Part shown: positions 24,208 through 38,816 of the stretch, in pieces
Layout: each line of letters opens with the position of its first letter
Numbering within the stretch: the first letter of the stretch is position 1
Source: Nitrospirales bacterium
GTDB taxonomy: Bacteria > Nitrospirota > Nitrospiria > Nitrospirales > UBA8639
Direction: 5' to 3'
Assembly: GCA_022825885.1 (NCBI GenBank)
Contig: JAJDVY010000013.1
Span: forward strand, 1-64,000
DNA length: 64,000 nt
Notes under the pieces: generated by a model
Told to the model about the DNA's origin: nothing
Database searches by the model: none
Seen by the model: only the letters and a program-made list of their open reading frames with translations
Translations under genes and position numbers: made by a program

Positions 24208-25224
24208 ATGGCTGTTCCGCTCTCCCAGATGCTGACAGTCACCAGCTACGTGTTCTCGCAAAAACTGAAGGGCGTTAAACGCTATCCATTGGTGTTGATG
24301 TTGGAGCCGCTCTTTCGGTGCAATCTGGCCTGTGCCGGTTGTGGAAAGATCCAATATCCCGAGCACGTCCTGGACCGGCGGTTAACGCCCGAACAATGTT
24401 GGGCTGCGGCTGAAGAGTGCGGCGCTCCCATTATCAGCATTCCCGGCGGGGAGCCGCTCATTCATCCCGAGATGTCGGAGATCGTTCAAGGGTTGGTGCG
24501 CCGCGGGAAATTTGTCTATTTGTGCACGAATGCGATTCTGCTGGAACGCAAAATGGATGAATATACCCCTTCCAACCGTTTGATCTTCAGTATCCACATG
24601 GACGGGTTGCGTGAAGAACATGATTTCGCCGTCTGTCGTGACGGGGTCTATGACGTCGCGACGAGAGCGATCAAAGCGGCCTTAAAACGAGGATTCCGGG
24701 TCACCACCAACACGACCCTTTTCAGCGATGCGAATCCGCCTCGGGTTCGGGCCTTTTTTGACGAAATGATGGATCTTGGCGTGGAGGGGATGATGATATC
24801 TCCGGGCTACAGTTACGAAAAGGCGCCGGACCAGCATGGCTTCTTGAAGCGGCGTCGGACGCAGGAACTGTTTGCCGCAGTGTTTGCGGAGAGGAAACGC
24901 CGGTGGCGATTCAACCAATCCCCCTTGTTTTTGGAATTTCTTATGGGCAAACGTGATTATCAATGCACCCCATGGGGAAATCCCACCTATAATATTTTCG
25001 GCTGGCAGAAGCCGTGTTATCTTTTGCAGGATGGATACGTATCGAGTTTCAGGGAATTGCTCGAGACGACCGCGTGGGACCGGTACGGCGTCGGGCGCAA
25101 TGAGAAATGCCGGGATTGTATGGTGCATTGCGGGTTCGAAGCCTCGGCCGTGGAGGAAACGTTTGGTTCATGGTCCGGGTTGACCGGAACCGTGAAGGCG
25201 ATGTTGTTTCCCAACGCGACCTGA
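24208..25224 (+). CDS. hpnH: Radical SAM adenosylhopene transferase
   Basis: 338 residues. HpnH adds the 5'-deoxyadenosyl group to hopene, the first step of hopanoid side-chain synthesis. The radical SAM cluster motif CNLACAGC gives Cys 38, 42 and 45 in CxxxCxxC. SIPGGEPLIHPEMSEI (the GGE motif) and FSIHMDGLREEHD follow. A C-terminal Cys cluster (NEKCRDCMVHCGFEA) is present. The product adenosylhopane is the substrate of HpnG, encoded 4 kb upstream. The stop codon overlaps the next start (TGATG). Confidence 0.95.
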   Translation: MAVPLSQMLTVTSYVFSQKLKGVKRYPLVLMLEPLFRCNLACAGCGKIQYPEHVLDRRLTPEQCWAAAEECGAPIISIPGGEPLIHPEMSEIVQGLVRRGKFVYLCTNAILLERKMDEYTPSNRLIFSIHMDGLREEHDFAVCRDGVYDVATRAIKAALKRGFRVTTNTTLFSDANPPRVRAFFDEMMDLGVEGMMISPGYSYEKAPDQHGFLKRRRTQELFAAVFAERKRRWRFNQSPLFLEFLMGKRDYQCTPWGNPTYNIFGWQKPCYLLQDGYVSSFRELLETTAWDRYGVGRNEKCRDCMVHCGFEASAVEETFGSWSGLTGTVKAMLFPNAT

Positions 25225-26082: not shown

Positions 26083-26736
26083 ATGGAAAAGGATACATTC
26101 CAAACAGTGAAGGGTCTTGTTGCCGTTGTGGCACTGGGATTGACGTTGTCAGCCTGCGGAGAAGCCAAACCGCCGGCTCCACCGCCCCCGGCGCCCCCGG
26201 AATATGCCGATAAACATATGCCGGCAGACTATTGGAATAACCCGGACATTATTGCGCAAGGGAAGGCGATCTTCACCGGGGCGGAAAATATCGACGTCAA
26301 TTGTGCCAGTTGTCATGGAAAAGACGGCAAACCCGTGAAGGCCGGGGCTCGAGATTTTCGCAAAGGTGACTTTATGAAGCTGTTCTCTGACTCCCAATGG
26401 TTCTGGCGCGTGTCCGAAGGGGTCAAGGGAACAAAGATGAAGGCTTGGAAATCCAAGCTTTCCGAGGATGATCGGTGGAAGGTGATTGCGTTTGAAGCCA
26501 CGTTCGGCTTGAAAGGCATGGAGTACAGCGTTGCGCAAAAGAAATGGGTGCCCCAAGGCACGGCGGCTTCCGTGGCTCCGGCGGCTGACGAGGCAGCTCC
26601 CGCAACTGAAGAGGCGGCGGTTCCTGAAGAAGCGGCTCCTGCAACTGCAGAGCCGGCGGCTGAGGAAGCGGCGGCTCCGAATGGAGAAGCGGCGGCTCCG
26701 AACGGAGAAGCGGCCGGCGGAGAATCTCCCCAGTAA
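26083..26736 (+). CDS. Mono-heme cytochrome c lipoprotein
   Basis: 217 residues. A lipobox ends LTLSAC (lipid Cys 25), then a Pro-rich spacer, one CASCH heme site (C74-H78) and a likely distal Met ligand in KGTKMKAWKSKL. The last 65 or so residues are Ala/Pro/Glu-rich repeats (EEAAPATAEPAAEEAA, and two copies of AAAPNGE), probably a flexible tether. Exposed on the periplasmic side of a membrane. First gene of the respiratory cluster, 54 nt before the first bd-like gene, so a likely electron acceptor or donor of that complex. Confidence 0.85.
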   Translation: MEKDTFQTVKGLVAVVALGLTLSACGEAKPPAPPPPAPPEYADKHMPADYWNNPDIIAQGKAIFTGAENIDVNCASCHGKDGKPVKAGARDFRKGDFMKLFSDSQWFWRVSEGVKGTKMKAWKSKLSEDDRWKVIAFEATFGLKGMEYSVAQKKWVPQGTAASVAPAADEAAPATEEAAVPEEAAPATAEPAAEEAAAPNGEAAAPNGEAAGGESPQ

Positions 26737-26790
26737 CGCGGGCGATTTCCACGTTCTTTTGCGGCATAAACCGGAAGGAGGCCACCACCC

Positions 26791-28503
26791 TTGAAAACCT
26801 TAATCCGCAGTTTTGTGATTTTGCCAGGCCTTCTGCTTGGGGGGCTTGCCATTGCCTATGCCCAAGCTCCGGCTCCCCCGCCTGTGGAATTTCCCTATAC
26901 CGGAAATCGGACCGGGGTATGGATCGTGGCCCAACTCCACATTTTGTTTGCCGCGTTTATTCTGGGGGCCCCGATATTCGCCGTGGTGTCGGAATGGCTG
27001 GGCTATAAAAACCAGGATCCGAAATATGACCGGTTAGCCAAGGAAGTCACCAAAGTCACGGTGATCCTGTACAGTATGACCGCCCTAACCGGCGGGCTGT
27101 TTATTTTTGTCCTGCTCGCTACCTATCCCGATTTCACCACCTGGCTCATCAAGCATTTTTTCATGATTTTCGCCGTGGCGTATCCGCTCCTGTTTATTCT
27201 GGAGACGATCGTATTGTATACGTACTTTTACTCTTGGGATGCGCTGAAGGGCGAAAAGAAAGCCCGGCATATTGCTCTCGGGGTCTTGTTGAACGTCGTC
27301 GGCACGGTGACGTTGTTTGTCATCGACGGTCCCACGGCGTTCATGAATACGCCCGCCAAATCCGCGGAGGGGGTCTCTCTGATTCAGTTCGTCCAGAGCG
27401 CGGGTTTGTGGGATAAGGTGGCGAATTACAGTTGGATGCCCTTGAATCTGCATCGGTTGGTCGGAAACGTGACGTTCGGTGGATTTATTGCGGGACTGGT
27501 GGCGGCGTATATGTATATGGGGGCCAAGACGGATGAAGAGCGCTCATACTACGATTGGATGGGCTTTGTGGGGAACATGATCGGCGTGGGCGCCCTTCTG
27601 TTCCTGCCCTTCATGGGGTATCTCCTGGCCTATGAACTCTGTGACTATGATGCGTCCATTTGCCCGTACATGATGGCGGACCAGTTGTCGATGTTTTTTG
27701 AAATGCAGGGGGCCATGGTCGGTCTGATCTTTCTCGCCAGTAATTATTACATCTGGCTGAGCATGAAACGGATTCAAGGCGTGGAGCAGGTTCGTATGTC
27801 CGGGATGGTCATGGTTGCCGTCGTGCTCATTCCGGTGGTCATGGGAGTTGCCTGGAAACTGTTCCCGCCGCCTGAATGGCAGTCGCTGATCTTCCTGGCT
27901 TTGCTGATCGTGCTTCCGCCGATTCTGAGCAAGCTGCCGGGTTTGCGATTTACGGTGTCCTCCTTCACCATGATCAAGGTCGGTTTTCTGATGATCGTGG
28001 TCGCCAACGCCATCTGGATGACGCCTCATGGCTTTGTGGCGACACAAGCGTTGGCCACTGAAGAATTGGAGCTTCCCTCGTGGGCCAGTGAGTTGGCCCT
28101 GATGCCGGCAAAAAATGCGGCGGCGTTTACGCTGGTCTTTCTGACCATCGTCAACTACCTTCTTTACAACCGGGCCATCAGGAGCGGGACGATTATCTGG
28201 GGGAAGATCGACTTCACGTCCCAATTCGTCCTGATCTTCCTGGCGTTCAGTGCCATCTGGACGATGGGCTTGATGGGCACGGTTCGATCCCTCACGAGAA
28301 AGTATTTCCACGTGTATAACCTTGTGCCGGACTTTACCCCCGAAGCCTTCACGCCTACCTTGGCGTATTCCGCCTGGTGGATTACAGGTGTGACCCTGGT
28401 CTTTTATCTCGTGGTGAGTTTTGCCATTGTCGTGACGTTAAGAACCACCGGGCAGAAAACCGATGCCCCGCAAGCGGCTCCGGTGCCTGCCGGTGCGGAG
28501 TAA
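26791..28503 (+). CDS. Cytochrome bd-like subunit I, copy 1
   Basis: 570 residues with an N-terminal signal-like stretch (LLLGGLAIAYAQA) and about 12-14 membrane helices. The N-terminal half resembles CydA: VAQLHILFAAFILGAPI with His 50 at the place of the first heme ligand, LFILETIVLYTYFYSWDAL (Glu 138 at the E. coli Glu107 position, no equivalent of Glu99), and NLHRLVGNVTFGGFIAG (His 221 at the H186 position). The quinol-binding Q-loop motif GDESGYE of true CydA is absent, and no CydB follows. It is therefore unlikely to be a canonical oxidase. Start is TTG 26791 after AAGGAGG. Confidence 0.8.
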   Translation: MKTLIRSFVILPGLLLGGLAIAYAQAPAPPPVEFPYTGNRTGVWIVAQLHILFAAFILGAPIFAVVSEWLGYKNQDPKYDRLAKEVTKVTVILYSMTALTGGLFIFVLLATYPDFTTWLIKHFFMIFAVAYPLLFILETIVLYTYFYSWDALKGEKKARHIALGVLLNVVGTVTLFVIDGPTAFMNTPAKSAEGVSLIQFVQSAGLWDKVANYSWMPLNLHRLVGNVTFGGFIAGLVAAYMYMGAKTDEERSYYDWMGFVGNMIGVGALLFLPFMGYLLAYELCDYDASICPYMMADQLSMFFEMQGAMVGLIFLASNYYIWLSMKRIQGVEQVRMSGMVMVAVVLIPVVMGVAWKLFPPPEWQSLIFLALLIVLPPILSKLPGLRFTVSSFTMIKVGFLMIVVANAIWMTPHGFVATQALATEELELPSWASELALMPAKNAAAFTLVFLTIVNYLLYNRAIRSGTIIWGKIDFTSQFVLIFLAFSAIWTMGLMGTVRSLTRKYFHVYNLVPDFTPEAFTPTLAYSAWWITGVTLVFYLVVSFAIVVTLRTTGQKTDAPQAAPVPAGAE

Positions 28504-28521
28504 CGGAGGTGGGAAGCAAGT

Positions 28522-29328
28522 ATGGCTGAGCAAAGTTTGACGCGAAACATCATCAAAAAAGGCATCGTCGGCGTCCTCTTGGGGGTGATCCTGGCAGGGG
28601 TGGCCAAAGCCACGCATTTCCCCTTCGTCTTTCAGGTCATGTTCTTCATTTATGCCATGCTCGGCGCCGGCGTGTTCATCCTGCTTGATGCGCCCTCTCT
28701 GAGTCGTCTTGAGGGAATCAAGGCGATCATCGGTCTGGTGTTGTTTTATCTGGTGCTTTCGGGGGTGTACATCGGCGGGGCGACCAGCCTGCCTCAGTAC
28801 GACCCGGAAGTGGAAAAAGGAAAGATCGAGAAGATCCTGAAAGCGCGCCGGGCAAGGACTCAGCAAGGCAAAGCCGAAGAATTGATCGCACGAGCCAAAG
28901 CCCTGAATGAGCGCGCCGTCTCGATCGAGCAACAATTGAAAGTTCTTGGTGGCGGCGTGCAGGTCGTGGAGGAAGCCGCGACGCCCACCTCAACGGCAGC
29001 GGCCGGGGACCTAGTGGCGCTTGGTAAAGAGCAATGGGAACTGCAAGAGTGTTACAACTGTCACAAACTCTTTGGGCAAGGTGGTAAGAAGCGAGGGCCG
29101 GAGTTGGACAATATCGGCAATCTCATGACGTCTGAAGCCCTCAGGGAAAAGATTCTCGACCCCAAGAGTTGGAAGGCCGAAGGATTCGACAAGCAGTACA
29201 AGAAAGGCAAAATGCCGAACAAATATAAAGACTTGATGTTTGACGAAGAGATCGACGCGTTGGTGGCCTTTTTGGCGACGTTGAAAGATACGTCGGTCAA
29301 TACCCCGAAGCCCATCAAAATGAAATAA
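28522..29328 (+). CDS. Membrane-anchored mono-heme cytochrome c
   Basis: 268 residues. Three hydrophobic N-terminal helices (about 13-32, 35-53 and 65-86) are followed by a coiled-coil-like charged segment (about 95-140) and a C-terminal cytochrome c domain with CYNCH (C177-H181) and a plausible Met ligand in KGKMPNKYKDL. The heme domain is periplasmic. It sits between bd-like copy 1 and the Rieske gene, 18 nt after the former, and is probably a subunit of the same complex. Confidence 0.85.
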   Translation: MAEQSLTRNIIKKGIVGVLLGVILAGVAKATHFPFVFQVMFFIYAMLGAGVFILLDAPSLSRLEGIKAIIGLVLFYLVLSGVYIGGATSLPQYDPEVEKGKIEKILKARRARTQQGKAEELIARAKALNERAVSIEQQLKVLGGGVQVVEEAATPTSTAAAGDLVALGKEQWELQECYNCHKLFGQGGKKRGPELDNIGNLMTSEALREKILDPKSWKAEGFDKQYKKGKMPNKYKDLMFDEEIDALVAFLATLKDTSVNTPKPIKMK

Positions 29329-29339
29329 TCTGGTGGTTG

Positions 29340-30278
29340 ATGCAACCCAAAATTAAGGCAAAGGCGCGGTGCGCCGACGGGGAAGTCGGCAGTATTTCCA
29401 AGGTCATCGTCGATCCGTTATCCCTCGAGATCAGTCACGTGGTGGTCAGGGAAGGGAACGGCGTGGATCGCCAGGTTCCGATCGCCCAGGTCCAGGAAAT
29501 CCCGCACGAAGAAGAAATCATCTTACGGGGTTCATTGGAGGAATTCAGGGCATGTCCCGTACTCGACCGGGATGCCTACGTCACGCATCATGACGTGGAA
29601 ATTGCGCACCTGGAAGACCGTCTTCACGTGGAGCCCGGCGAAATTCTCGTGCCCTATCCCCGGTTGGAGCAGGGGATGCCCCGTCGCAGCTTTTTCATGA
29701 ACATGACGCACGCCATCGGAACGTTGATCGCCCTTCCGTTGGCGTTCCCCGTTTTGAAATATCTCATGAAGCCCATGTATAAGCCGTTCGACAATTCTTG
29801 GTTTTCCGTGGGGAACGTCCGCAAAATCAAAAAGGAAAACATCGGCTACCAGTTCAAGTTTACGCGGGGCTTCAAAGAAGCCTTCATGCCCGAACAGCAG
29901 ATTGAAAAAAACATCTGGGTGGTCAAGGCCACGCCTGAAGTGCAAAAGGCGGTCTACGGCGGGAAAGACAAAAAGTTTTATGACCATAAGGGAGACATGG
30001 TGTGGGTGAATAAGGCCAAGGCGCCCTACATCGGTTTTTCCGGAAAATGTCCGCACTTGGGATGCGGGTACAAGTGGCGCAGGACAAAGAATTTTCCTGA
30101 CGGGGTCTTTCTGTGTCCCTGCCATTTAAGTATCTATGATGAAGCGGGCAAGGTGCTGGATGGTCCGGCCCCGCGGCCTCTCGACGTCCTGCCGATGCAA
30201 GTCAACGCCGCCGGGGAAGTGCAAATCATCGACGTCGAATACAAGGCCGGAGTGAAAGGCCAAATCCGCCTTCTGTAG
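29340..30278 (+). CDS. PRC-barrel / Rieske iron-sulfur fusion protein
   Basis: 312 residues. Residues 1-90 or so form a PRC-barrel-like beta domain (CADGEVGSISKVIVDP...). A membrane anchor follows (HAIGTLIALPLAFPVLKYLM) and then a Rieske [2Fe-2S] domain with CPHLGC (Cys237, His239, Cys242) and CPCH (Cys259, Cys261, His262); both cluster ligands and the disulfide pair are intact. The PRC barrel before the anchor is unusual for bc-type Rieske proteins and would be cytoplasmic. ATG 29340 is preferred to TTG 29337. Lies 7 nt before cytochrome b. Confidence 0.85.
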   Translation: MQPKIKAKARCADGEVGSISKVIVDPLSLEISHVVVREGNGVDRQVPIAQVQEIPHEEEIILRGSLEEFRACPVLDRDAYVTHHDVEIAHLEDRLHVEPGEILVPYPRLEQGMPRRSFFMNMTHAIGTLIALPLAFPVLKYLMKPMYKPFDNSWFSVGNVRKIKKENIGYQFKFTRGFKEAFMPEQQIEKNIWVVKATPEVQKAVYGGKDKKFYDHKGDMVWVNKAKAPYIGFSGKCPHLGCGYKWRRTKNFPDGVFLCPCHLSIYDEAGKVLDGPAPRPLDVLPMQVNAAGEVQIIDVEYKAGVKGQIRLL

Positions 30279-30285
30279 CGTCATC

Positions 30286-31392
30286 ATGGCCGACAATACC
30301 ACCAACGTACCCAACGCTTTTGAAAAAGTCGTCGATTTCGTCGATGAACGGGTCGGCCTGAAAACCATTCAGGCCAAAATGTTGAATGAACCCGTTCCCG
30401 GCGGGTCTCGATGGGCCTATGCGTTCGGGTCGTGTTTGTTGTTCATCTTTATCATGCAGGTGGTGACGGGGATTCTGTTGATGTTTTATTACGTCCCGAG
30501 CACCGATCATGCGTATGCAAGTACGCAGTACATCATTCATGAAGTGGACTACGGATGGTTTCTGCTGAGTTACCATTTCTGGGGCTCCTCGGCCATGGTG
30601 GTGATGGTGTTCGCCCATATGTCGCAAGTGTTCTTGTGGGGGGCGTATAAAAAACCCAGGGAACTGATTTGGTTGGTCGGGCTGGCCCTCTTTGGCCTGG
30701 TCCTGGCATTCGGCTTCACGGGCTACCTGCTCCCGTGGGACCAAAGGGCGTATTGGGCCACGGTTGTGGGCGTCGAGATCATGGATAAGACCCCGATCGT
30801 CGGGGATTTTATGAGTCGATTTTTGAAAGGGGGGCCGACCCCGGGTCAAATGACCCTGAGCCGGTTCTTCGTCATTCACGTGATGGTGTTGCCCGCGGGG
30901 TTGATGGGGCTGGCCGGTCTTCATCTCTTCCTGTTCCGCAAGGCCGGACCCGCCGGTCCGTTCCGTGGCACTCCCGAACAAATCAAGGCGAAGACGGATT
31001 ATTTCTTTCCCAGACAAATCTGGAAAGACATCGTGGCCATGGCCACGGTCTTCCTGATTATTTGTACGTTGACGTTCATTGAGCCGGTGGTGTTGTTGGA
31101 AGAGGCCACGCCGGACCCGGGGGATTATCATCCGGAACCTGAATGGTATTTTCTGTTTCTCTTCCAGCTCTTGCGATTGAAAATCTTTGGCGGAGAACTC
31201 GGTCAGTTTCTGGGAGCCGTGGCGATTCCCGGAGCGTTCATGGGGTTGCTGGCGGCGCTGCCTTTTCTTGACAGGAATCCGGAGCGGAATATTTTTAAAC
31301 GGCCGATTGCGTTGATCGGCTGGATCGCCATTATGGCGATGATCCTGATTTTCACGGTTTCCGCGATTCTGAATAGAGAATTTCTGGATTAA
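30286..31392 (+). CDS. Cytochrome b of a bc/b6f-type complex
   Basis: 368 residues covering the b6-like four-helix part and a subunit-IV-like C-terminal part. Heme ligands are visible: His97 and His111 in helix B, His198 and His213 in helix D; the 14-residue gap in helix D is the b6f-type spacing. The Qo-site PEWY is intact at residues 285-288. About eight membrane helices. With the Rieske protein upstream it can oxidise quinol and bifurcate electrons. It is 6 nt before an unknown membrane protein. Confidence 0.92.
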   Translation: MADNTTNVPNAFEKVVDFVDERVGLKTIQAKMLNEPVPGGSRWAYAFGSCLLFIFIMQVVTGILLMFYYVPSTDHAYASTQYIIHEVDYGWFLLSYHFWGSSAMVVMVFAHMSQVFLWGAYKKPRELIWLVGLALFGLVLAFGFTGYLLPWDQRAYWATVVGVEIMDKTPIVGDFMSRFLKGGPTPGQMTLSRFFVIHVMVLPAGLMGLAGLHLFLFRKAGPAGPFRGTPEQIKAKTDYFFPRQIWKDIVAMATVFLIICTLTFIEPVVLLEEATPDPGDYHPEPEWYFLFLFQLLRLKIFGGELGQFLGAVAIPGAFMGLLAALPFLDRNPERNIFKRPIALIGWIAIMAMILIFTVSAILNREFLD

Positions 31393-31397
31393 TCAGT

Positions 31398-32333
31398 ATG
31401 TCGAACGCCAAACTCGGGCTCCTGGTTTTGTGGCCAACTTTCTGGACGGGCTTCCCCCTGAAGATGGTGGCCGCGTTGCTTATGTTGGCGTCCGGCGTTC
31501 ATCCCTGGGAAGGGACCGGTCTTGAAGCGTTGCTGGTCCTTTCCATTCCCATCGACATTTGGGCGCTTGGTCTGTGCTCCCGGACCGTTTTTCTGGAACG
31601 GTTGAGCGTGGACCCGCCAAAGGGAATGGGCCTGCGCTTGTGGGGGCTGTGGGCGGTCTTTTCCGTCGTCTATCTTCCCCTGTTGTTTATGATTATGAGC
31701 GGGGTCAAGTCCCTTGCCCAATCCGCGGTCCATGCCACGTTGCATTTTGTTGAAAGCAACGTCATCGTGATTCCCATTGCGGAAAAAATCAGCTTGGAAT
31801 TGGTCATGTGGGGATTGCCGGCCACTATCGTCCTGATCGTCCTGGTGTATGGCTGGTTGTTCGGATTGGGTGCCTTGGCGCAACGCTTTGTTCGCGCGTC
31901 AACGCCCGTCGAGGGGGCGTTTCAGGACGTGGTCTCGAAATGGGATCTTCTCCGGATTCCGCGAGATCAGCCACTCTTGCTGACGGCCTTTACCGGAACC
32001 GGCATCGTGTTGATCATGGTGTTTTGGGGGTTGATCCCCGTGAGTACGCCGCATCCTCATGAAGAATACGAATTTGTGGACGCCGGGAAGGTAGAAGAAA
32101 AGATCGTACCCAAAAAGGTGATTCAAAGCGCGGAGCAGGTCCTGGCGCGCGCCGAAGCCACGTTGAAAGAACTGGAAAAAGACAATCCCGTGGCGGAAGC
32201 GCCGAAAGAAGAGAAACAAGCGGCAGCCCAGGAGAAGCCGGCGGTCCCACCGGCGCCTGCGGCCGCAGAAAAGCCGGCGGCGACTCCCGCTTCCGATGGG
32301 CATAGCCACGACCATGGCGATCATCAGCATTAA
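31398..32333 (+). CDS. Unknown membrane protein with His-rich tail
   Basis: 311 residues with about five hydrophobic segments in residues 5-215, a charged coiled-coil-like stretch (VIQSAEQVLARAEATLKELE), an Ala/Pro/Glu linker, and a C-terminus rich in His and Asp (DGHSHDHGDHQH) that could bind a divalent metal. I do not recognise the family. It lies between cytochrome b and bd-like copy 2 with short gaps, so it is likely an accessory or assembly subunit of the complex. Confidence 0.7.
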   Translation: MSNAKLGLLVLWPTFWTGFPLKMVAALLMLASGVHPWEGTGLEALLVLSIPIDIWALGLCSRTVFLERLSVDPPKGMGLRLWGLWAVFSVVYLPLLFMIMSGVKSLAQSAVHATLHFVESNVIVIPIAEKISLELVMWGLPATIVLIVLVYGWLFGLGALAQRFVRASTPVEGAFQDVVSKWDLLRIPRDQPLLLTAFTGTGIVLIMVFWGLIPVSTPHPHEEYEFVDAGKVEEKIVPKKVIQSAEQVLARAEATLKELEKDNPVAEAPKEEKQAAAQEKPAVPPAPAAAEKPAATPASDGHSHDHGDHQH

Positions 32334-32360
32334 TGATCCTATACCAATGAAGGCTCACAC

Positions 32361-34217
32361 ATGCAAAACCACGGCATAATCCAACGGTTGAAGTCCCTGG
32401 TGCCAACGGTGAAACCTTCGTCCCTCTTGGGATGGAGTGTTTTTTGGGGGCTCGTGCTTCTCCCGGCGCTTGTCTGGGCTCAGGATGCGGCTACCCAAGC
32501 GATGTCCGTCGAGTACCGGGACATTCCGGGACTCGGAAGCCGCAACGTGGTCTGGGTTGTGGCCCAGCAGCATTTGCTGCTTGCCGGGTTCGTGTTGGGC
32601 GTTCCAATTTTTGCCTGGGTGTGCGAAATCGTCGGATGGAAGACCAAGGAAGCCCGGTACGACAAACTGGCGAAAGAGTTTACCAAGCTCCTGACGTCCG
32701 CGTACGCCACGACGGCTCTGTTCGGAGGCATTCTGCTCTTTTTGCTGATCGGGCTGTACCCGAAGCTCATGGCGTATTTATCCGATATCTTTTTCCCGTC
32801 CTTCATCGTGTATTGTCTGTTGTTCCTGTTGGAAACCGTGACCTTGTACCTGTACTGGTACGGATGGGACGCCATGCAAGGGAACAAAAAGACGTTTCAT
32901 CTGTTTTTGGGCTTCCTGCTGAACGTCTTTGCCCTGGGGATCATGATCGTGCCCAACGCGTGGGCCACGTTCCAGGCGAGTCCCGTCGTGGTGGCGGAGG
33001 GGACGGCGATTGATCGGGCATGGGCGGCCACGTGGAACCCGACGTGGTGGCCGGTGAACATTCATCGACTCATTGCCAACGTGGTGTTGGGCGGGTTTAT
33101 TTGCGGGGCGTATGCCGGTATCCGGTATCTCCTGGCGGCCAGCCAGGAGGAGCGGGAGCATTATGATTGGATGGGCTACGTCGGAAACTTCATCGGCGTA
33201 TTCGGTATGCTTCCTCTTCCCTTCGCCGGGTATTGGCTCATGCGCGAGATCTATCAATACAACCAGCAGATGGGTATCACCCTTATGGGCGGGTTCCTGG
33301 CATGGCTTTTCATTCTTCAAGCCATGCTCATCGGGGTGCTGTTTCTCGGAGCCAATTACTATTTTTGGATGGGAATTACATACCGGATTCCCGGCTCCGA
33401 GCGAGGGTATAGACGACCGATCCTGGCCATGTTGATCGTGCTCATGGTGTGCTTGGGCGTCTGGATGACCCCCCACTCCCTGGTCGCCAGTCTTGAAGAG
33501 GCCAGAAAAATGGGCGGGACCCATCACCCGTTGCTTGGGGTGTTCGGGGTGATGTCCGCAAAAATGACGGTATCCAACCTCATGATTCTGGTCACCTTTA
33601 TGAGCTTTATCATGTATTGGCGGGCCGGAAAGCAGGAAACGGCCGGGTGGGCAAAGATCGCCAAATCCGTGATGGGAGCCTTGCTGGTGCTCGCGGGAAT
33701 TGCGGTGATCGTTCTCGGGGTCTGGGGGTATTTTGTTCCGGCAATCATCCGGATCAATTATTTTTCCGTCGCACAGGTGTTGATCGTCCTGTTTATCATG
33801 CTGACGTTTACACCCTTGACGGCCATCCTGATGAAAAGCGCCAAAACCACGACGGAAATGGTCTGGGGACAAATGCCGATCCGGGCCGGGTATGCGTTGG
33901 TCTCCAATGCGGTCATGGTCATTCTGTTGATGTCGCTGATGGGCTATGCCCGCTCATCGTCCAGGGTGCATTGGCACATCTACGGCGTGATGAGAGATAC
34001 GTCCGACTACGCCTATTCTCCTGCGTTGGGCTACGCGGCCGCCTTCATGTCCCTGAACACGTTTGTGTTCTGCCTGTTGGTGGCGTTCATCTTTTGGGTC
34101 GCCACGATGGGTGACAAGGGGAAGAAAACTCCGGACCGGAAACAGCCCGAACCGGCGGACATTCCGGCAGGCGTGACCCCGGCCATGGCCGGCGGTTCCC
34201 CGCGGGAACAGGACTGA
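32361..34217 (+). CDS. Cytochrome bd-like subunit I, copy 2
   Basis: 618 residues with an N-terminal hydrophobic signal-like region ending LPALVWAQDAA, then about 14 helices. The pattern matches copy 1: VAQQHLLLAGFVLGVPI (His71), LLFLLETVTLYLYWYGWDAM (Glu158), VNIHRLIANVVLGGFI (His235), and a shared DWMGYVGNFIGVFG segment. The Q-loop motif and CydB are missing. It is a clear paralogue of copy 1, implying an ancient duplication, and the pair may form a heterodimer taking the place of CydA/CydB. The C-terminal tail is Pro/Glu-rich. Confidence 0.8.
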   Translation: MQNHGIIQRLKSLVPTVKPSSLLGWSVFWGLVLLPALVWAQDAATQAMSVEYRDIPGLGSRNVVWVVAQQHLLLAGFVLGVPIFAWVCEIVGWKTKEARYDKLAKEFTKLLTSAYATTALFGGILLFLLIGLYPKLMAYLSDIFFPSFIVYCLLFLLETVTLYLYWYGWDAMQGNKKTFHLFLGFLLNVFALGIMIVPNAWATFQASPVVVAEGTAIDRAWAATWNPTWWPVNIHRLIANVVLGGFICGAYAGIRYLLAASQEEREHYDWMGYVGNFIGVFGMLPLPFAGYWLMREIYQYNQQMGITLMGGFLAWLFILQAMLIGVLFLGANYYFWMGITYRIPGSERGYRRPILAMLIVLMVCLGVWMTPHSLVASLEEARKMGGTHHPLLGVFGVMSAKMTVSNLMILVTFMSFIMYWRAGKQETAGWAKIAKSVMGALLVLAGIAVIVLGVWGYFVPAIIRINYFSVAQVLIVLFIMLTFTPLTAILMKSAKTTTEMVWGQMPIRAGYALVSNAVMVILLMSLMGYARSSSRVHWHIYGVMRDTSDYAYSPALGYAAAFMSLNTFVFCLLVAFIFWVATMGDKGKKTPDRKQPEPADIPAGVTPAMAGGSPREQD

Positions 34218-34284
34218 AGGGCGAGACGAGGCATGATTGAGAACCCATTGACGTTGGCATTTCCAACCCGGAGCGAGAGAACTC

Positions 34285-34893
34285 ATGAGTGAAGTGGCAT
34301 TACTGCAATTGATCGGTCTCACGGTCGTAGGACTTGGAATCTGTATCCTGCTCTTCATCAAGGCGAAGTTCCTCAGGGTGGTCGGCTTCGTGGTGATCGT
34401 ATTGGGGACGTTTACCCTGATTGCCTTGGGGGTGCCGCAGATGCCCTCCCTTCCTCCGGCGATCGAAACCTTTGACATTGCCGAAGTCAAAACGCCGGAT
34501 GATCTGGCCTCGATCGGTCAAAAGATTTTCTTCAGCAAAGGCCAGTGCGCCTTGTGTCATTCGATCGGCCCCAGTGAATCAGCCAGGTGTCCGGATTTGA
34601 AAGGCATCGGGGCGAAACTCGCCCCGGAATTCATCTATGAAAGCCTCACCGACCCTCAAGCCTATATTTATCTGGATTTCAGGCATGAGGGTCTGCCCAA
34701 GGAATATCCGGCACGGATGCCGTACATCCATAAAAATCCGATTGCCTTGTCGCAACAAGAGATTTATTCGGTCATTTCCTTTCTCCAGAAAATGAGCGGA
34801 GAACCCATTAGCATCAAGGTGGAAGACGTGATGAATATCGGCAAGGAAAGCGAGGTGGAAGTCGCCTCCCTCGCCGTCAATGGAGCACCTTAA
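34285..34893 (+). CDS. Membrane-anchored mono-heme cytochrome c
   Basis: 202 residues. Two N-terminal helices (about 6-25 and 29-49) anchor a cytochrome c domain with CALCH (C88-H92) and a Met ligand candidate in ARMPYIHKNPI. A second Cys (ESARCPDLKG) lies near the heme. It is 67 nt after bd-like copy 2 with a modest ribosome site (GAGAGA). A likely periplasmic electron carrier within the complex. Confidence 0.85.
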   Translation: MSEVALLQLIGLTVVGLGICILLFIKAKFLRVVGFVVIVLGTFTLIALGVPQMPSLPPAIETFDIAEVKTPDDLASIGQKIFFSKGQCALCHSIGPSESARCPDLKGIGAKLAPEFIYESLTDPQAYIYLDFRHEGLPKEYPARMPYIHKNPIALSQQEIYSVISFLQKMSGEPISIKVEDVMNIGKESEVEVASLAVNGAP

Positions 34894-34908
34894 CCAGAAG
34901 GATGAACG

Positions 34909-35634
34909 ATGAAAGGTCCTCTTGCGAAAACGGCTATCCTGTTGGTGGGAATGTATGTCTTTCTCAAATTCATACTCCCATTGTTTACGGCACCGCTGCC
35001 GGCCAGTCTGATTTTCCTGTACCTGGCTCTGACCTTTGCCTCTGCGATGATTTTCTACACCATGAGCGGGGGAGGCCTCGATGAATTCATGGGACCGGTC
35101 GGGCGATTCCTCACGGGTTCGGGACAGGCGGGTATTGCCGGGACCGCGCGCATTCTGGTGTTCATATTGTTTCCCTTGTTGGTGGGTTGGCAGGCGTACA
35201 CCCGGCTTGCCCCCAGCGATATGCCGCCGGCGGAAAACCGAACCATTCATCCCGCGCCTCCGGGCGAGTTTGTCGGGTTGGCCAACCCGTATCCGCGAAC
35301 GCAGGAAAATATCATGATGGGGAAAGGCTTGTATGCGGCGTTTTGTTCTCCCTGTCACGGAGCCAATTTCGACGGAAAAGGCCCGGCGGCAGTGGGTTTC
35401 AATCCTCCTCCGGCGAATTTCAGCGATCCGGGGACCATTGCCCAATTACAGGAATCCTATCTTTTTTGGCGGATCAAGAAAGGTGGCGTGGGGCTTCCGG
35501 TCGAAGCCATGCCTTGGAAGTCAGCCATGCCGAGATGGGAAGTGGAATTGCCGGATGAATGGATCTGGAAAATCATCATGGGTGAATATGACGGCGCCGG
35601 CCAGTCTCCACGGACTTGGGAAGAAGAGGAATAA
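34909..35634 (+). CDS. Membrane-anchored mono-heme cytochrome c
   Basis: 241 residues. Three N-terminal hydrophobic helices (about 8-28, 33-52 and 78-97) precede a cytochrome c domain with CSPCH (C146-H150) followed by the usual GxxFDGKGP pattern, a common class I-like loop, and a Met ligand candidate in AMPRWEVEL. The C-terminus is acidic (WEEEE). It is 15 nt after the previous cytochrome and belongs to the same operon. Confidence 0.85.
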   Translation: MKGPLAKTAILLVGMYVFLKFILPLFTAPLPASLIFLYLALTFASAMIFYTMSGGGLDEFMGPVGRFLTGSGQAGIAGTARILVFILFPLLVGWQAYTRLAPSDMPPAENRTIHPAPPGEFVGLANPYPRTQENIMMGKGLYAAFCSPCHGANFDGKGPAAVGFNPPPANFSDPGTIAQLQESYLFWRIKKGGVGLPVEAMPWKSAMPRWEVELPDEWIWKIIMGEYDGAGQSPRTWEEEE

Positions 35635-35712
35635 GGAACGGGTTGAGGTTGCGCCCTCGCAGGTCCGGCGAACGTCGGACGTGGAGAAGGGAAGGATCCA
35701 AGGAGCAGGAAA

Positions 35713-36549
35713 ATGGGATATAAGAAGATCTTCAACGTCGCGCTCGGGCTTACCCTCATAGTCACGGGAGTCGGGGTTTCCTGCGTGTTCGCGAGCGATC
35801 CGCCTCCGGAAGGCGAAACCGGCAGCGTGGCCGTTCGTCTCTTTTTGACTGAGGGAGCCGTCCCTGCGGATGATCCGAATGCCGCCGTGTGGAACACGAT
35901 CGAGCCTGCGGAATTCAAGTTGGCTCCACAAGTGCATTGGCCGGACCGCATTCAGGAAGTCACGGTGAAGTCCGTGAATGTGCGCGGGGTCCATAATGGT
36001 CAGGATATGGCGATCCTGCTGGAGTACGCCGACCCGTCTGAAGATGCCGCGGATGCCGCCGCAGTCGAGTTCATGGTCGGCGATAAAATGGCCCATTTCG
36101 CCCATGGACAGGAAATGCTGCAAGTCGAGGGGGGAGACGTCAATATCTGGTATTGGAAAAAAGAACACGGCAAAGCGACCGACATGACGGCCAAGGGCTT
36201 CAAAACGCTTCGTCCGCAAGAAAACCAGGACGTCTCGGCATCGGGATTTTGGCGGGACGGAACCTGGCGCGTCGTCTTTTCACGGCCCTTACAAACGCCT
36301 GATGAGTTGGACGTCCAAGTCACGCCGGGAGAATGGCGAAACGTGGCGTTCGCGTTTTGGGACGGGGAAATCGTGGATGGAGCCGTGAAAGAAAAAGGGT
36401 CGCAAAAAGCCGTTTCATCATGGTGGTACATTCGGGCCGAGCCGCCACCGGACAATTCCATTTATGGATACGTCGTGTTGGGTATCGTGCTTGCTGCCGG
36501 CTTTGAGTTTTTCCTGGTAAGAAAAATTCGGAGGGGCAACGAATCATGA
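35713..36549 (+). CDS. Heme-b subunit of ethylbenzene dehydrogenase gamma / NxrC type
   Basis: 278 residues with an N-terminal signal or anchor (GLTLIVTGVGVSCVFA), a beta-rich domain and a C-terminal helix (YGYVVLGIVLAAGFEFFLV). The order VAVRLFLTEGAVP, HWPDRIQEVTVKSVNVRGV, DGTWRVVFSRPLQ, VAFAFWDGE matches the gamma subunits of type II DMSO-reductase enzymes (ethylbenzene dehydrogenase, selenate reductase, nitrite oxidoreductase), which carry a heme b ligated by Met and Lys. No alpha or beta subunit is nearby, so it probably serves as an electron-transfer module of this complex. The stop overlaps the next ATG by 4 nt. Confidence 0.75.
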   Translation: MGYKKIFNVALGLTLIVTGVGVSCVFASDPPPEGETGSVAVRLFLTEGAVPADDPNAAVWNTIEPAEFKLAPQVHWPDRIQEVTVKSVNVRGVHNGQDMAILLEYADPSEDAADAAAVEFMVGDKMAHFAHGQEMLQVEGGDVNIWYWKKEHGKATDMTAKGFKTLRPQENQDVSASGFWRDGTWRVVFSRPLQTPDELDVQVTPGEWRNVAFAFWDGEIVDGAVKEKGSQKAVSSWWYIRAEPPPDNSIYGYVVLGIVLAAGFEFFLVRKIRRGNES

Positions 36550-37628
36550 AGGGAGAGCAAGGCGTGCAGCGGATACTGATTAAGGTCGCCATCGTGGTCG
36601 TCGCGGTGTTTGCCGTCACGAGCGGCTGCGCGTTGTTTGAAGATGAACGGACGGCAAAAGGCCGCAAACTCTATAATCATTACTGCATGCACTGTCACGG
36701 CGAAAGCGGACAACAGCAGGAGGGTTTCAATTGGGGACGCATGCCGGATCCCCGTCCTCGGGACCTGTCGGAATCCGAGGCGATGTCCACCTTTGCCGAC
36801 GAAGAAATCTTCAACACGATTTCCCGGGACATGCGCGATACCACGTTGCAGGAAGTGCTCGACGATGAAAACTACTTCGCGGTCTCGACCATGCCGACCT
36901 TCAAATATACCCTTTCCGAAGAGGAACTGTGGGCCGTGGTCGGATACGTGCGTACGCTTCACGGCGGCTCGTTGACGTTTGACGTTGAAGGGCGGAAAGC
37001 CGAGTTGGAGTCGCAGTTCAAGGCTGCCGAGGCGGCACATGATCAAGCCAAACAGGTCATGGATGAAGCTTTGGCGAAACAGGAAGCCGAAGAAGCCGCC
37101 CGGGAGGCCGCCGAGGAAGAAGCCGAAGAAGATGACGAAGATATGGATATGGAAGACGACGAGGATGCCGATCTAGAAGAAGAGGATGAAGAAGAGGAAA
37201 TCGTGCTTCCCGAAGAAGAGGCCTATGAAAAAGTGGCGGAACAATTTGAGGCCGCCAAGGCCGCCTGGGAAAATTTCTCGAAACGTCCCAAGATGACGCA
37301 AATCGCGCGTCCCGACCTAACCGTGGCGGAGCCTGAACGAGTAGCCCTGGAAGAAGAAGGGAAGAGCCTGTATTTCGACAAATACGGATGTAACGGGTGT
37401 CACAGTATCGGAGACGCCGGCGGTCTGGTGGGTCCGGCCTTGGACCGTGCCGGATTCCGTCTCAATGATACCTGGGTCTATCGCTGGGTCCGTTACCCGC
37501 AAGGCATGAAAAAGCATACGCGCATGCCGAACTTGGGACTCGATGATCATGATGCACGAGCCGTAACGGCGTATCTCGATACCCTGCGGGCGCCAAAACC
37601 GGACAACCCCATTCCCCCGCCGGAATAA
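36546..37628 (+). CDS. Di-heme cytochrome c lipoprotein with acidic linker
   Basis: 360 residues. A lipobox ends VTSGC (Cys28). Heme site 1 is CMHCH (C47-H51) with a Met candidate in STMPTFKYTL; heme site 2 is CNGCH (C282-H286) with HTRMPNLGL as distal Met. The two domains are joined by about 100 residues of helical, strongly acidic sequence (runs of D/E around 180-225, for example EEDDEDMDMEDDEDADLEEE). The linker may interact with a basic partner or metal. Overlaps the upstream gene by 4 nt (ATGA) and ends the cluster. Confidence 0.88.
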   Translation: MKGEQGVQRILIKVAIVVVAVFAVTSGCALFEDERTAKGRKLYNHYCMHCHGESGQQQEGFNWGRMPDPRPRDLSESEAMSTFADEEIFNTISRDMRDTTLQEVLDDENYFAVSTMPTFKYTLSEEELWAVVGYVRTLHGGSLTFDVEGRKAELESQFKAAEAAHDQAKQVMDEALAKQEAEEAAREAAEEEAEEDDEDMDMEDDEDADLEEEDEEEEIVLPEEEAYEKVAEQFEAAKAAWENFSKRPKMTQIARPDLTVAEPERVALEEEGKSLYFDKYGCNGCHSIGDAGGLVGPALDRAGFRLNDTWVYRWVRYPQGMKKHTRMPNLGLDDHDARAVTAYLDTLRAPKPDNPIPPPE

Positions 37629-37854: not shown

Positions 37855-38748
37855 TTACAGCGTTCCTGTCCAGATCGCAACCAGGAGTACCAGGCCGATG
37901 AGCGTGTGTTGTTTGAACATGGCAAAAGCCTCAGAGGGGGAGACCTCGTCGCGCAGGCGCCAGACCTGTTGACTCAAGAACCCCGTGACTCCGGCCAGTC
38001 CTCCATAAAACACCGCATTCAGATTCTCCAACCAACCCGCCGTGGCCAAACACCCCAGCATGGCCATCTCGATGATGCCTACGGCTATCCACACGTGAGA
38101 GCCGAAGAAAATCGCCGACGAGTTCACCCCGATACGAAGATCGTCCTCAACGTCCTGGAGCGCGTAAATGGTGTCGTAGGCCACAGCCCAGCAAAGCGTG
38201 GCGGCAAAGAGCAGCCAGACTGCGGGATCGAGTTGGTTGCGAACGGCGGCCCAGGCCATCACGGCCCCCCACCCGAACGCCATCCCGAGAAAAAGTTGAG
38301 GGACGTGAAAGAACCGTTTCGTAAAGGGATAGATTGTGGCCAGGACCAATGCGACCGGGCCGAGCCGTATGGCCAGTGGATTCAAAAACAACAGGAGGCT
38401 CACGGCTATGGCAAGGAGGACGCCGAGGAACAGGATGGCATGCCAGGGGCGAAGGGCCCCACTGGCGAGAGGCCGGGTTTGGGTGCGGGTGACTTGCCGG
38501 TCGAATGAACGATCGGCCAAATCATTGATGATGACTCCGGCGCTTCTCATGATGAACGATCCTCCCGCGAATAGGACAATCAGCAGAACGGATGGACGGC
38601 CTTTTGACGCCAGGACCAACGCCCATAGGGTTGGAATCATGAGCAGGAGAGTGCCCGCCTGATTCGATAGCCTGATCAGAGAGCTCAGGTGGGCAAACGA
38701 GAAACGGGGAATCGATGCCGAAGCAGGTTTACCAGCAGGGGAGGACAT
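37855..38748 (-). CDS. ubiA: UbiA-family prenyltransferase
   Basis: 297 residues with about eight helices. The two Asp-rich motifs are present: NDLADRSFDRQVTRTQTRPL (first) and YDTIYALQDVEDDLRIG (second), closest to 4-hydroxybenzoate polyprenyltransferase. These enzymes attach the isoprenoid tail to a quinone head group. In an organism using menaquinone the same family could act in the futalosine route, so the substrate is not certain. ATG 38748 is preferred to TTG 38784. Convergent with the respiratory cluster, with which it would share the quinone pool. Confidence 0.82.
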   Translation of the reverse strand: MSSPAGKPASASIPRFSFAHLSSLIRLSNQAGTLLLMIPTLWALVLASKGRPSVLLIVLFAGGSFIMRSAGVIINDLADRSFDRQVTRTQTRPLASGALRPWHAILFLGVLLAIAVSLLLFLNPLAIRLGPVALVLATIYPFTKRFFHVPQLFLGMAFGWGAVMAWAAVRNQLDPAVWLLFAATLCWAVAYDTIYALQDVEDDLRIGVNSSAIFFGSHVWIAVGIIEMAMLGCLATAGWLENLNAVFYGGLAGVTGFLSQQVWRLRDEVSPSEAFAMFKQHTLIGLVLLVAIWTGTL

Positions 38749-38816
38749 CGTTTCAACGTAGCGTAGGAGAAAAAATGGTGTCAATCATGCTTGACAGCCC
38801 CCTGTGTCACTCCTGT

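Follow-up and report, generated by a model that had tools for sequence, protein, structure and literature searches.

A complex III/bd-like respiratory gene cluster conserved in Nitrospirales and its candidate cytochrome c-fed CydA-like terminal oxidase

Introduction

Nitrospira are major nitrite oxidizers, and the route by which the electrons of nitrite reach O2 without a classical oxidase has been in question since their first genome. Here, we analyse a respiratory cluster of eleven genes (g1 to g11) of a Nitrospirales bacterium, encoded on contig JAJDVY010000013.1 (assembly GCA_022825885.1) within a stretch of 64,000 nucleotides, referred to throughout as the window. The cluster combines two CydA-like proteins, g2 and g7, with a Rieske protein, a cytochrome b and several cytochromes c.

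The closest described system is a region of the N. moscoviensis genome (Mundinger et al. 2019, PMC6606698) that contains CIII_1 (Rieske, cytochrome b), bd-like_1, bd-like_2 as putative complex IV, alt_nxrC_1 and several cytochromes c. It is highly transcribed, and a III/IV supercomplex has been suggested there as a proposal (PMC6606698). A second cluster, alt_nxrC_2/bd-like_3, is conserved in anammox bacteria, and reverse electron flow has been proposed for it (PMC6606698). Moreover, most Nitrospirales are taken to use a NIDE0901-like OR-N2 protein together with an OR-N1 protein as their likely terminal oxidase (PMC12342949), and bd-like complexes named TO_1 and TO_2 are known from Ca. Manganitrophus, the latter containing two MrpD-like subunits and being described as restricted to Ca. 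Manganitrophaceae (PMC9040806).

Overall, we read the locus, with a probability of about 0.65, as a conserved complex III-1/bd-like respiratory cluster in which the second half of the operon would constitute a CydA-like terminal oxidase fed by cytochrome c, the two halves meeting at the periplasmic cytochrome c pool.

A described cluster that is near-universal in the Nitrospirales

All eleven genes are found in the same order and on the same strand in N. moscoviensis NSP M-1 (L102, 39-86% identity) and in N. defluvii NOB1 (L116). Identities between the window and L102 are 76% for g2, 84% for g7, 86% for cytochrome b and 39% for g6, and the N. moscoviensis cluster, which likewise has two cytochromes c (g8, g9) between bd-like_2 and alt_nxrC_1, differs from that of the window by sequence divergence only. 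Complete eleven-gene collinearity on one strand is seen in 69 of the 113 fetched loci that exceed 9 kb and contain g2, and many of the remaining loci stop at contig edges. Such conservation of gene order is far beyond chance, and the cluster is near-universal in the order.

The link between the window genes and the NITMOv2 locus tags relies on gene order, on the sizes of the proteins and on their approximate location. The protein alt_NxrC_1 (NITMOv2_0740) has a mass of 30.5 kDa, a signal peptide, one transmembrane (TM) helix and no heme c, and two cytochrome c genes precede it (PMC6606698 Table 2). Since g10, g8 and g9 match alt_nxrC_1 and these two cytochromes c, g7 corresponds to bd-like_2 and g2 to bd-like_1. 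The gene cluster is already described and the operon itself is not new. The first-pass annotation had taken the hybrid operon for a novelty; the gene-order comparison with Nitrospirota genomes instead found the same composition on record at the level of the gene cluster, and no purified complex of this composition was found in the literature consulted.

The cluster, including the NxrC-like g10, is also present in four genomes without nitrite oxidoreductase (NXR), namely G239, G244, G282 and G301, the last with the swapped cassette discussed below; it is therefore not tied to nitrite oxidation.

Two modules and an exchangeable candidate oxidase cassette

The cluster is composed of two separable modules, A (g1-g6) and B (g7-g10, with g11). 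Genes g1-g6 occur without g7, g9 and g10 in two members of the order, G004 (L054) and G008 (L199), and g7-g8-g9-g10 occur without g1-g6 in several other families (e.g. L194, L195). G004 and G008 have no match to NXR, heme-copper oxidase (HCO) or CydB and are left with g2 and a bd4-type cassette only. In L193 (contig C140 of G152), COX2, a match to HCO subunit I and a UbiA-family gene are followed downstream by a g7-type gene; G152 has several HCO genes.

The arrangement of a CydA-like protein, two cytochromes c and an NxrC-like protein recurs with bd4 on contig C28 of the same genome as the window (L056) and in G202 and G192 (L224, L225). The C28 region (L056:7346-18994) encodes the CydA-like proteins bd3 and bd4 along with two cytochromes c and a diheme NxrC-like protein, and matches the described alt_nxrC_2/bd-like_3-4 region.

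Gene fusions give direct evidence that g7 and g8 are partners. In nine related loci (L180-L187, L198), a single protein of 775-831 residues with one CXXCH motif unites the g7 homologue with the g8 cytochrome c. Further, in L180:9518-15321 (G079) and in L186:10040-15902 (G301, of another family), such a g7::g8 fusion followed by two MrpD-like genes occupies the g7-g8 position of an otherwise intact operon. Against the curated profiles for subunit D of monovalent cation/H+ antiporters, the two added genes of L180 score 704 and 674 bits, above the respective cut-offs of 564 and 663 bits. This swap within the operon indicates that g7 and g8 are one exchangeable functional unit. G079 is a Nitrospira genome that bears NXR and has no HCO and no CydB match. 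Module B resembles TO_1 and TO_2 of Ca. Manganitrophus in uniting a bd-like protein with a periplasmic heme-b (NxrC-like) subunit, and the two MrpD-like subunits of TO_2 have their counterpart in the L180/L186 cassette, whereas the window operon has no MrpD (PMC9040806).

The separability of the modules across the phylum could be taken to mean that several unrelated enzymes are merely adjacent. We consider this very unlikely in view of the collinearity of all eleven genes in 69 loci, the coordinated high transcription in N. moscoviensis (PMC6606698) and the exchange of the oxidase cassette in place within the operon.

The CydA-like proteins: a bd fold with a different set of residues

AlphaFold2 models of g2 and g7 each have a predicted TM-score (pTM) of 0.81, and for both the only fold matches in the PDB at E<1e-3 are chains of cytochrome bd. 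Residues were compared in an alignment with E. coli CydA and canonical CydA proteins from relatives, and a wider sequence set confirms the comparison with few exceptions. The equivalents of the E. coli heme ligands His19 and His186 are present in all aligned g2, g7 and bd3/bd4 sequences, and that of Glu107 in nearly all. In the wider set, the Glu107 position is taken by Ser or Thr in two fused proteins and by Gly in two of the order's g2 orthologues, and the divergent L226 sequence is a further exception. The fold and these three residues are shared with canonical cytochrome bd (CydAB), from which g2 and g7 differ in the lack of CydB, the lack of the quinol loop, the loss of two glutamates and the gain of extra helices and histidines. 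A motif search found neither GDESGYE nor GRQPW in g2 and g7, and the models place the additional helices where canonical enzymes have the quinol loop.

A feature specific to one class is the adjacent pair His388-His389 of g7, which is found in g7-type proteins only and is invariant there, in fused and unfused forms and in several families. The same position holds Gln-His in bd3/bd4 and Tyr-His in the G202/G192 proteins, and g2, which travels with the bc module, lacks the pair and has nothing comparable. Because of this pair and the fusion to cytochrome c, and because bd3/bd4 types are reported in anaerobes (the bd3-type cluster has been placed in anaerobic anammox bacteria; PMC6606698, PMC3578206), we favour g7 as the best candidate for an O2 reductase among the CydA-like proteins, a choice that draws on sequence comparison.

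Terminal oxidase candidates in the genome and its relatives

The genome of the window (G000; 2.38 Mb, 95.5% complete) encodes four CydA-like proteins and an NxrA that matches the nitrite oxidoreductase structure PDB 7b04 with 1546 bits; no match to HCO (PF00115) or to CydB (PF02322) was found in it. It is apparently a member of "bin75" (Ca. Nitrosymbion), a genus of sponge symbionts, and g2 of 'Nitrospira sp. bin75' (L064) is 94% identical to that of the window. The account of this genus in PMC11812461 gives four bd-like oxidases, no cbb3 and no cydAB, and the window genome is likewise that of a nitrite oxidizer with four CydA-like proteins and without cbb3 or cydAB. Two single-contig relatives (G007, G020) likewise bear NXR and have no HCO and no CydB match, and neither PF00115 nor CydB is matched in 47 of the 147 sampled genomes of the order (E <= 0.001). 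With NXR present and HCO and CydB undetected, no O2-reductase candidates other than the CydA-like proteins are left within the families searched.

Several points weigh against an oxidase function of g7. In the literature found, O2-reductase activity is shown for none of these proteins. The Glu99 position is Tyr in all aligned g2, g7, bd3 and bd4 sequences (Tyr151 in g7), and the Glu445 position is Leu, rarely Val, the latter being less certain as the C-terminal half aligns poorly; both glutamates of E. coli CydA are functionally important for O2 reduction according to the title of Murali & Gennis 2018, as cited in PMC8585947. The inventory argument rests partly on metagenome-assembled genomes and covers two protein families, alternative oxidases not having been searched for. 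One genome (G009, 90% complete) has three NXR alpha-like genes and no CydA-like, HCO or CydB match, so the argument is not universal; either the G009 assembly is incomplete, or the organism does not oxidize nitrite aerobically. Finally, g7-type or g7-like proteins stand alongside true HCOs in G152, G161, G169, G153, G202 and others, and in these more distant Nitrospirota the g7 type therefore need not be an oxidase.

Given the absence of the Glu99 and Glu445 equivalents and of the quinol loop, any O2 chemistry of g2 or g7 must differ from that of canonical cytochrome bd. His539 of g7, invariant across these CydA-like proteins, is a possible substitute ligand for Glu445. Going further, g7 with g8 might be a bd-fold O2 reductase with a different active site, in which cytochrome c rather than quinol is the donor, Tyr replaces Glu99 and an extra His-His site might bind copper; in relatives where it is fused to cytochrome c and accompanied by two MrpD-type ion-translocating subunits, it would be a redox-driven pump built on a bd scaffold. 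We put this forward as a tentative idea that is rather doubtful as a whole.

The same losses could be explained if the CydA-like proteins did not reduce O2 but carried electrons across the membrane as wires, or reduced quinone in reverse electron flow. The paralogous cassette on C28 (bd4, two cytochromes c, NxrC-like) points in this direction, given the reverse flow proposed for the corresponding bd-like_3 cluster that is present in anammox bacteria (PMC6606698). However, a genome that bears NXR would then have no detected O2 reductase, and the His-His pair sets g7 apart from the paralogues shared with anammox bacteria, which makes the explanation unlikely. The first-pass annotation had leaned towards it for both proteins. 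For g7 it is disfavoured, as HCO and CydAB are undetected and g7::g8 fusions exist, and for g2 it may hold.

The literature would suggest another arrangement, in which g2 and g7 form one heterodimeric oxidase of the CydAA' type, as OR-N1 and OR-N2 probably do (PMC12342949, PMC10839748). The two genes share one operon throughout the order, and the OR-N CydAA' family (Murali et al. 2021, via PMC12342949 and PMC10839748) is like them in its CydA fold, its lack of a quinol site, its adjoining cytochromes c and its pair of CydA-like proteins. In many other genomes, by contrast, g2 and g7 are apart. The g7 type occurs without the g2 type in seven class-level genomes of several families (G229, G241, G251, G295, G256, G258, G287), G152, G161 and G169 each hold a single CydA-like protein, which is of the g7 type, G004 and G008 have g2 without g7, and the g7-g8-g9-g10 cassette is found standing alone. 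A g2+g7 heterodimer therefore appears not to be obligatory, and we regard this explanation as improbable. As a caveat, g7 could pair with a bd3/bd4-type protein in genomes that have one, and g2 is only presumed to be OR-N1.

Returning to the cytochrome c-fed oxidase, electrons from nitrite oxidoreductase would pass through periplasmic cytochromes c, and perhaps the heme-b gamma subunit g10, to g8, which with g9, g10 and g11 would deliver them to g7 for the reduction of O2. Module A would act as a quinol/cytochrome c oxidoreductase of the b6f type that includes a CydA-like heme protein of its own, g2. Part of the flow might run through g3-g6 in reverse, driven by the proton motive force, to the quinone pool and CO2 fixation; a reverse complex III acting onto methyl-plastoquinone has been proposed (PMC12324825). 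The reduction of O2 by g7, the direction of electron flow and the physical association of the modules are what we infer.

The bc module and g6

Proteins g4 and g5 fit the cytochrome b6f/bc family, with both pairs of b-heme histidines (HX13H, HX14H), PEWY and both Rieske cluster motifs present. Unlike the known complexes, the window has a PRC-barrel on the Rieske protein and the extra subunits g2 (CydA-like) and g6, and unlike in cytochrome b6f, the g5 position equated by eye with the Cys of heme c_n is Ala. The N-terminus of g4 matches PF05239 in 13 of 17 aligned members when Pfam is run on each (best E 4.6e-5). A profile search of this N-terminus against the PDB gave chance-level matches only, including a weak one to the reaction-centre H chain (E 1.2), and a search of the literature collection used found no paper that unites PRC-barrel, Rieske and cytochrome b.

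For g6, no Pfam or NCBIfam match was found, and a PDB search gave chance matches only, in agreement with the first-pass annotation, which had called it a His-tailed protein of unknown family. The tail itself (32246-32330) was rejected as a meaningful feature, with 40 of 59 orthologues having no His in the last 25 residues; the conserved motif is TPHPHE, directly after the last TM helix. In L186 and L189-L191, just residues ~185-280 are kept.

Gene list and flanking genes

The features are listed in Table 1, with gene identities taken from Pfam and NCBIfam profile searches of the window proteins. Gaps between the genes are about 80 bases at most. The g1 orthologue is the first gene of the cluster in L102 as well. 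Six CXXCH motifs are spread over five proteins, one each in g1, g3, g8 and g9 and two in g11. The NxrC-like g10 matches TIGR03477 (E 2.1e-30, below its cut-off) and PF09459 (E 8.2e-22), the EB_dh / DMSO reductase II gamma family. In these parts the first-pass annotation was accurate: eleven genes on one strand, two CydA-like proteins without CydB or the GDESGYE loop and with their heme His ligands retained, an intact b6f-like cytochrome b and Rieske pair, five cytochromes c with six heme motifs, and an NxrC-like heme-b subunit. A promoter scan stayed at chance level (7 found vs 6.4 expected), and a plasmid search with g2 gave no match.

Table 1. Genes, sites and neighbours of the respiratory cluster in the window
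Feature	Coordinates	Strand	Description
g1-g11	26083-37628	+	whole cluster, eleven open reading frames, one strand
g1	26083..26736	+	periplasmic monoheme cytochrome c, 217 residues, Pro/Ala-rich tail; PF13442 E 2.1e-9; one CXXCH
g2	26791..28503	+	CydA-like, bd-like_1 of N. moscoviensis; PF01654 (Cyt_bd_oxida_I) E 2.6e-15
g3	28522..29328	+	membrane-anchored monoheme cytochrome c of the bc module; PF00034 E 2.2e-12; one CXXCH; TM-like stretches
g4	29337..30278	+	Rieske protein with PRC-barrel-like N-terminal domain; PF00355; CPHLGC and CPCH; first ATG at 29340
g4 N-terminal domain	29337..29672	+	PRC-barrel-like, PF05239; conserved among aligned orthologues
g5	30286..31392	+	b6f-type cytochrome b with subunit IV fused, 368 residues; PF00033 and PF00032; HX13H, HX14H, PEWY at residue 285
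g6	31398..32333	+	membrane protein, family unknown; conserved core is the C-terminal TM helix and TPHPHE
g7	32361..34217	+	CydA-like, bd-like_2 (putative complex IV); PF01654 E 2.4e-13
g7 Tyr151 codon	32811..32813	+	occupies the Glu99 position of E. coli CydA
g7 His388-His389 codons	33522..33527	+	pair seen in g7-type proteins only
g8	34285..34893	+	membrane-anchored monoheme cytochrome c; PF00034; one CXXCH
g9	34909..35634	+	membrane-anchored monoheme cytochrome c; PF13442; one CXXCH; member of the recurring cassette
g10	35713..36549	+	NxrC-like periplasmic heme-b gamma subunit, C-terminal TM helix; alt_NxrC_1 (NITMOv2_0740)
g11	36546..37628	+	diheme cytochrome c; two CXXCH; PF13442 matched in two stretches
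Flank, HpnH	24208-25221	+	adenosyl-hopene transferase, TIGR03470 above cut-off
Flank, UbiA type	37858-38784	-	4-hydroxybenzoate prenyltransferase, TIGR01474 above cut-off; possible link to quinone synthesis

Concluding remarks

The cluster is ordinary for its group, and its interest lies in the chemistry of g7 as the candidate oxidase and in the MrpD-bearing variant rather than in the novelty of the operon. The comparison narrows the question of how nitrite electrons reach O2 to g7, its donor subunit g8 and the residues Tyr151, His388, His389, His537 and His539. Moreover, the variant in L180, from a Nitrospira genome with NXR, is a counterpart of TO_2, a complex reported as restricted to the Manganitrophaceae, and the swapped cassette with its MrpD subunits suggests that some members may couple the oxidase step to ion pumping.

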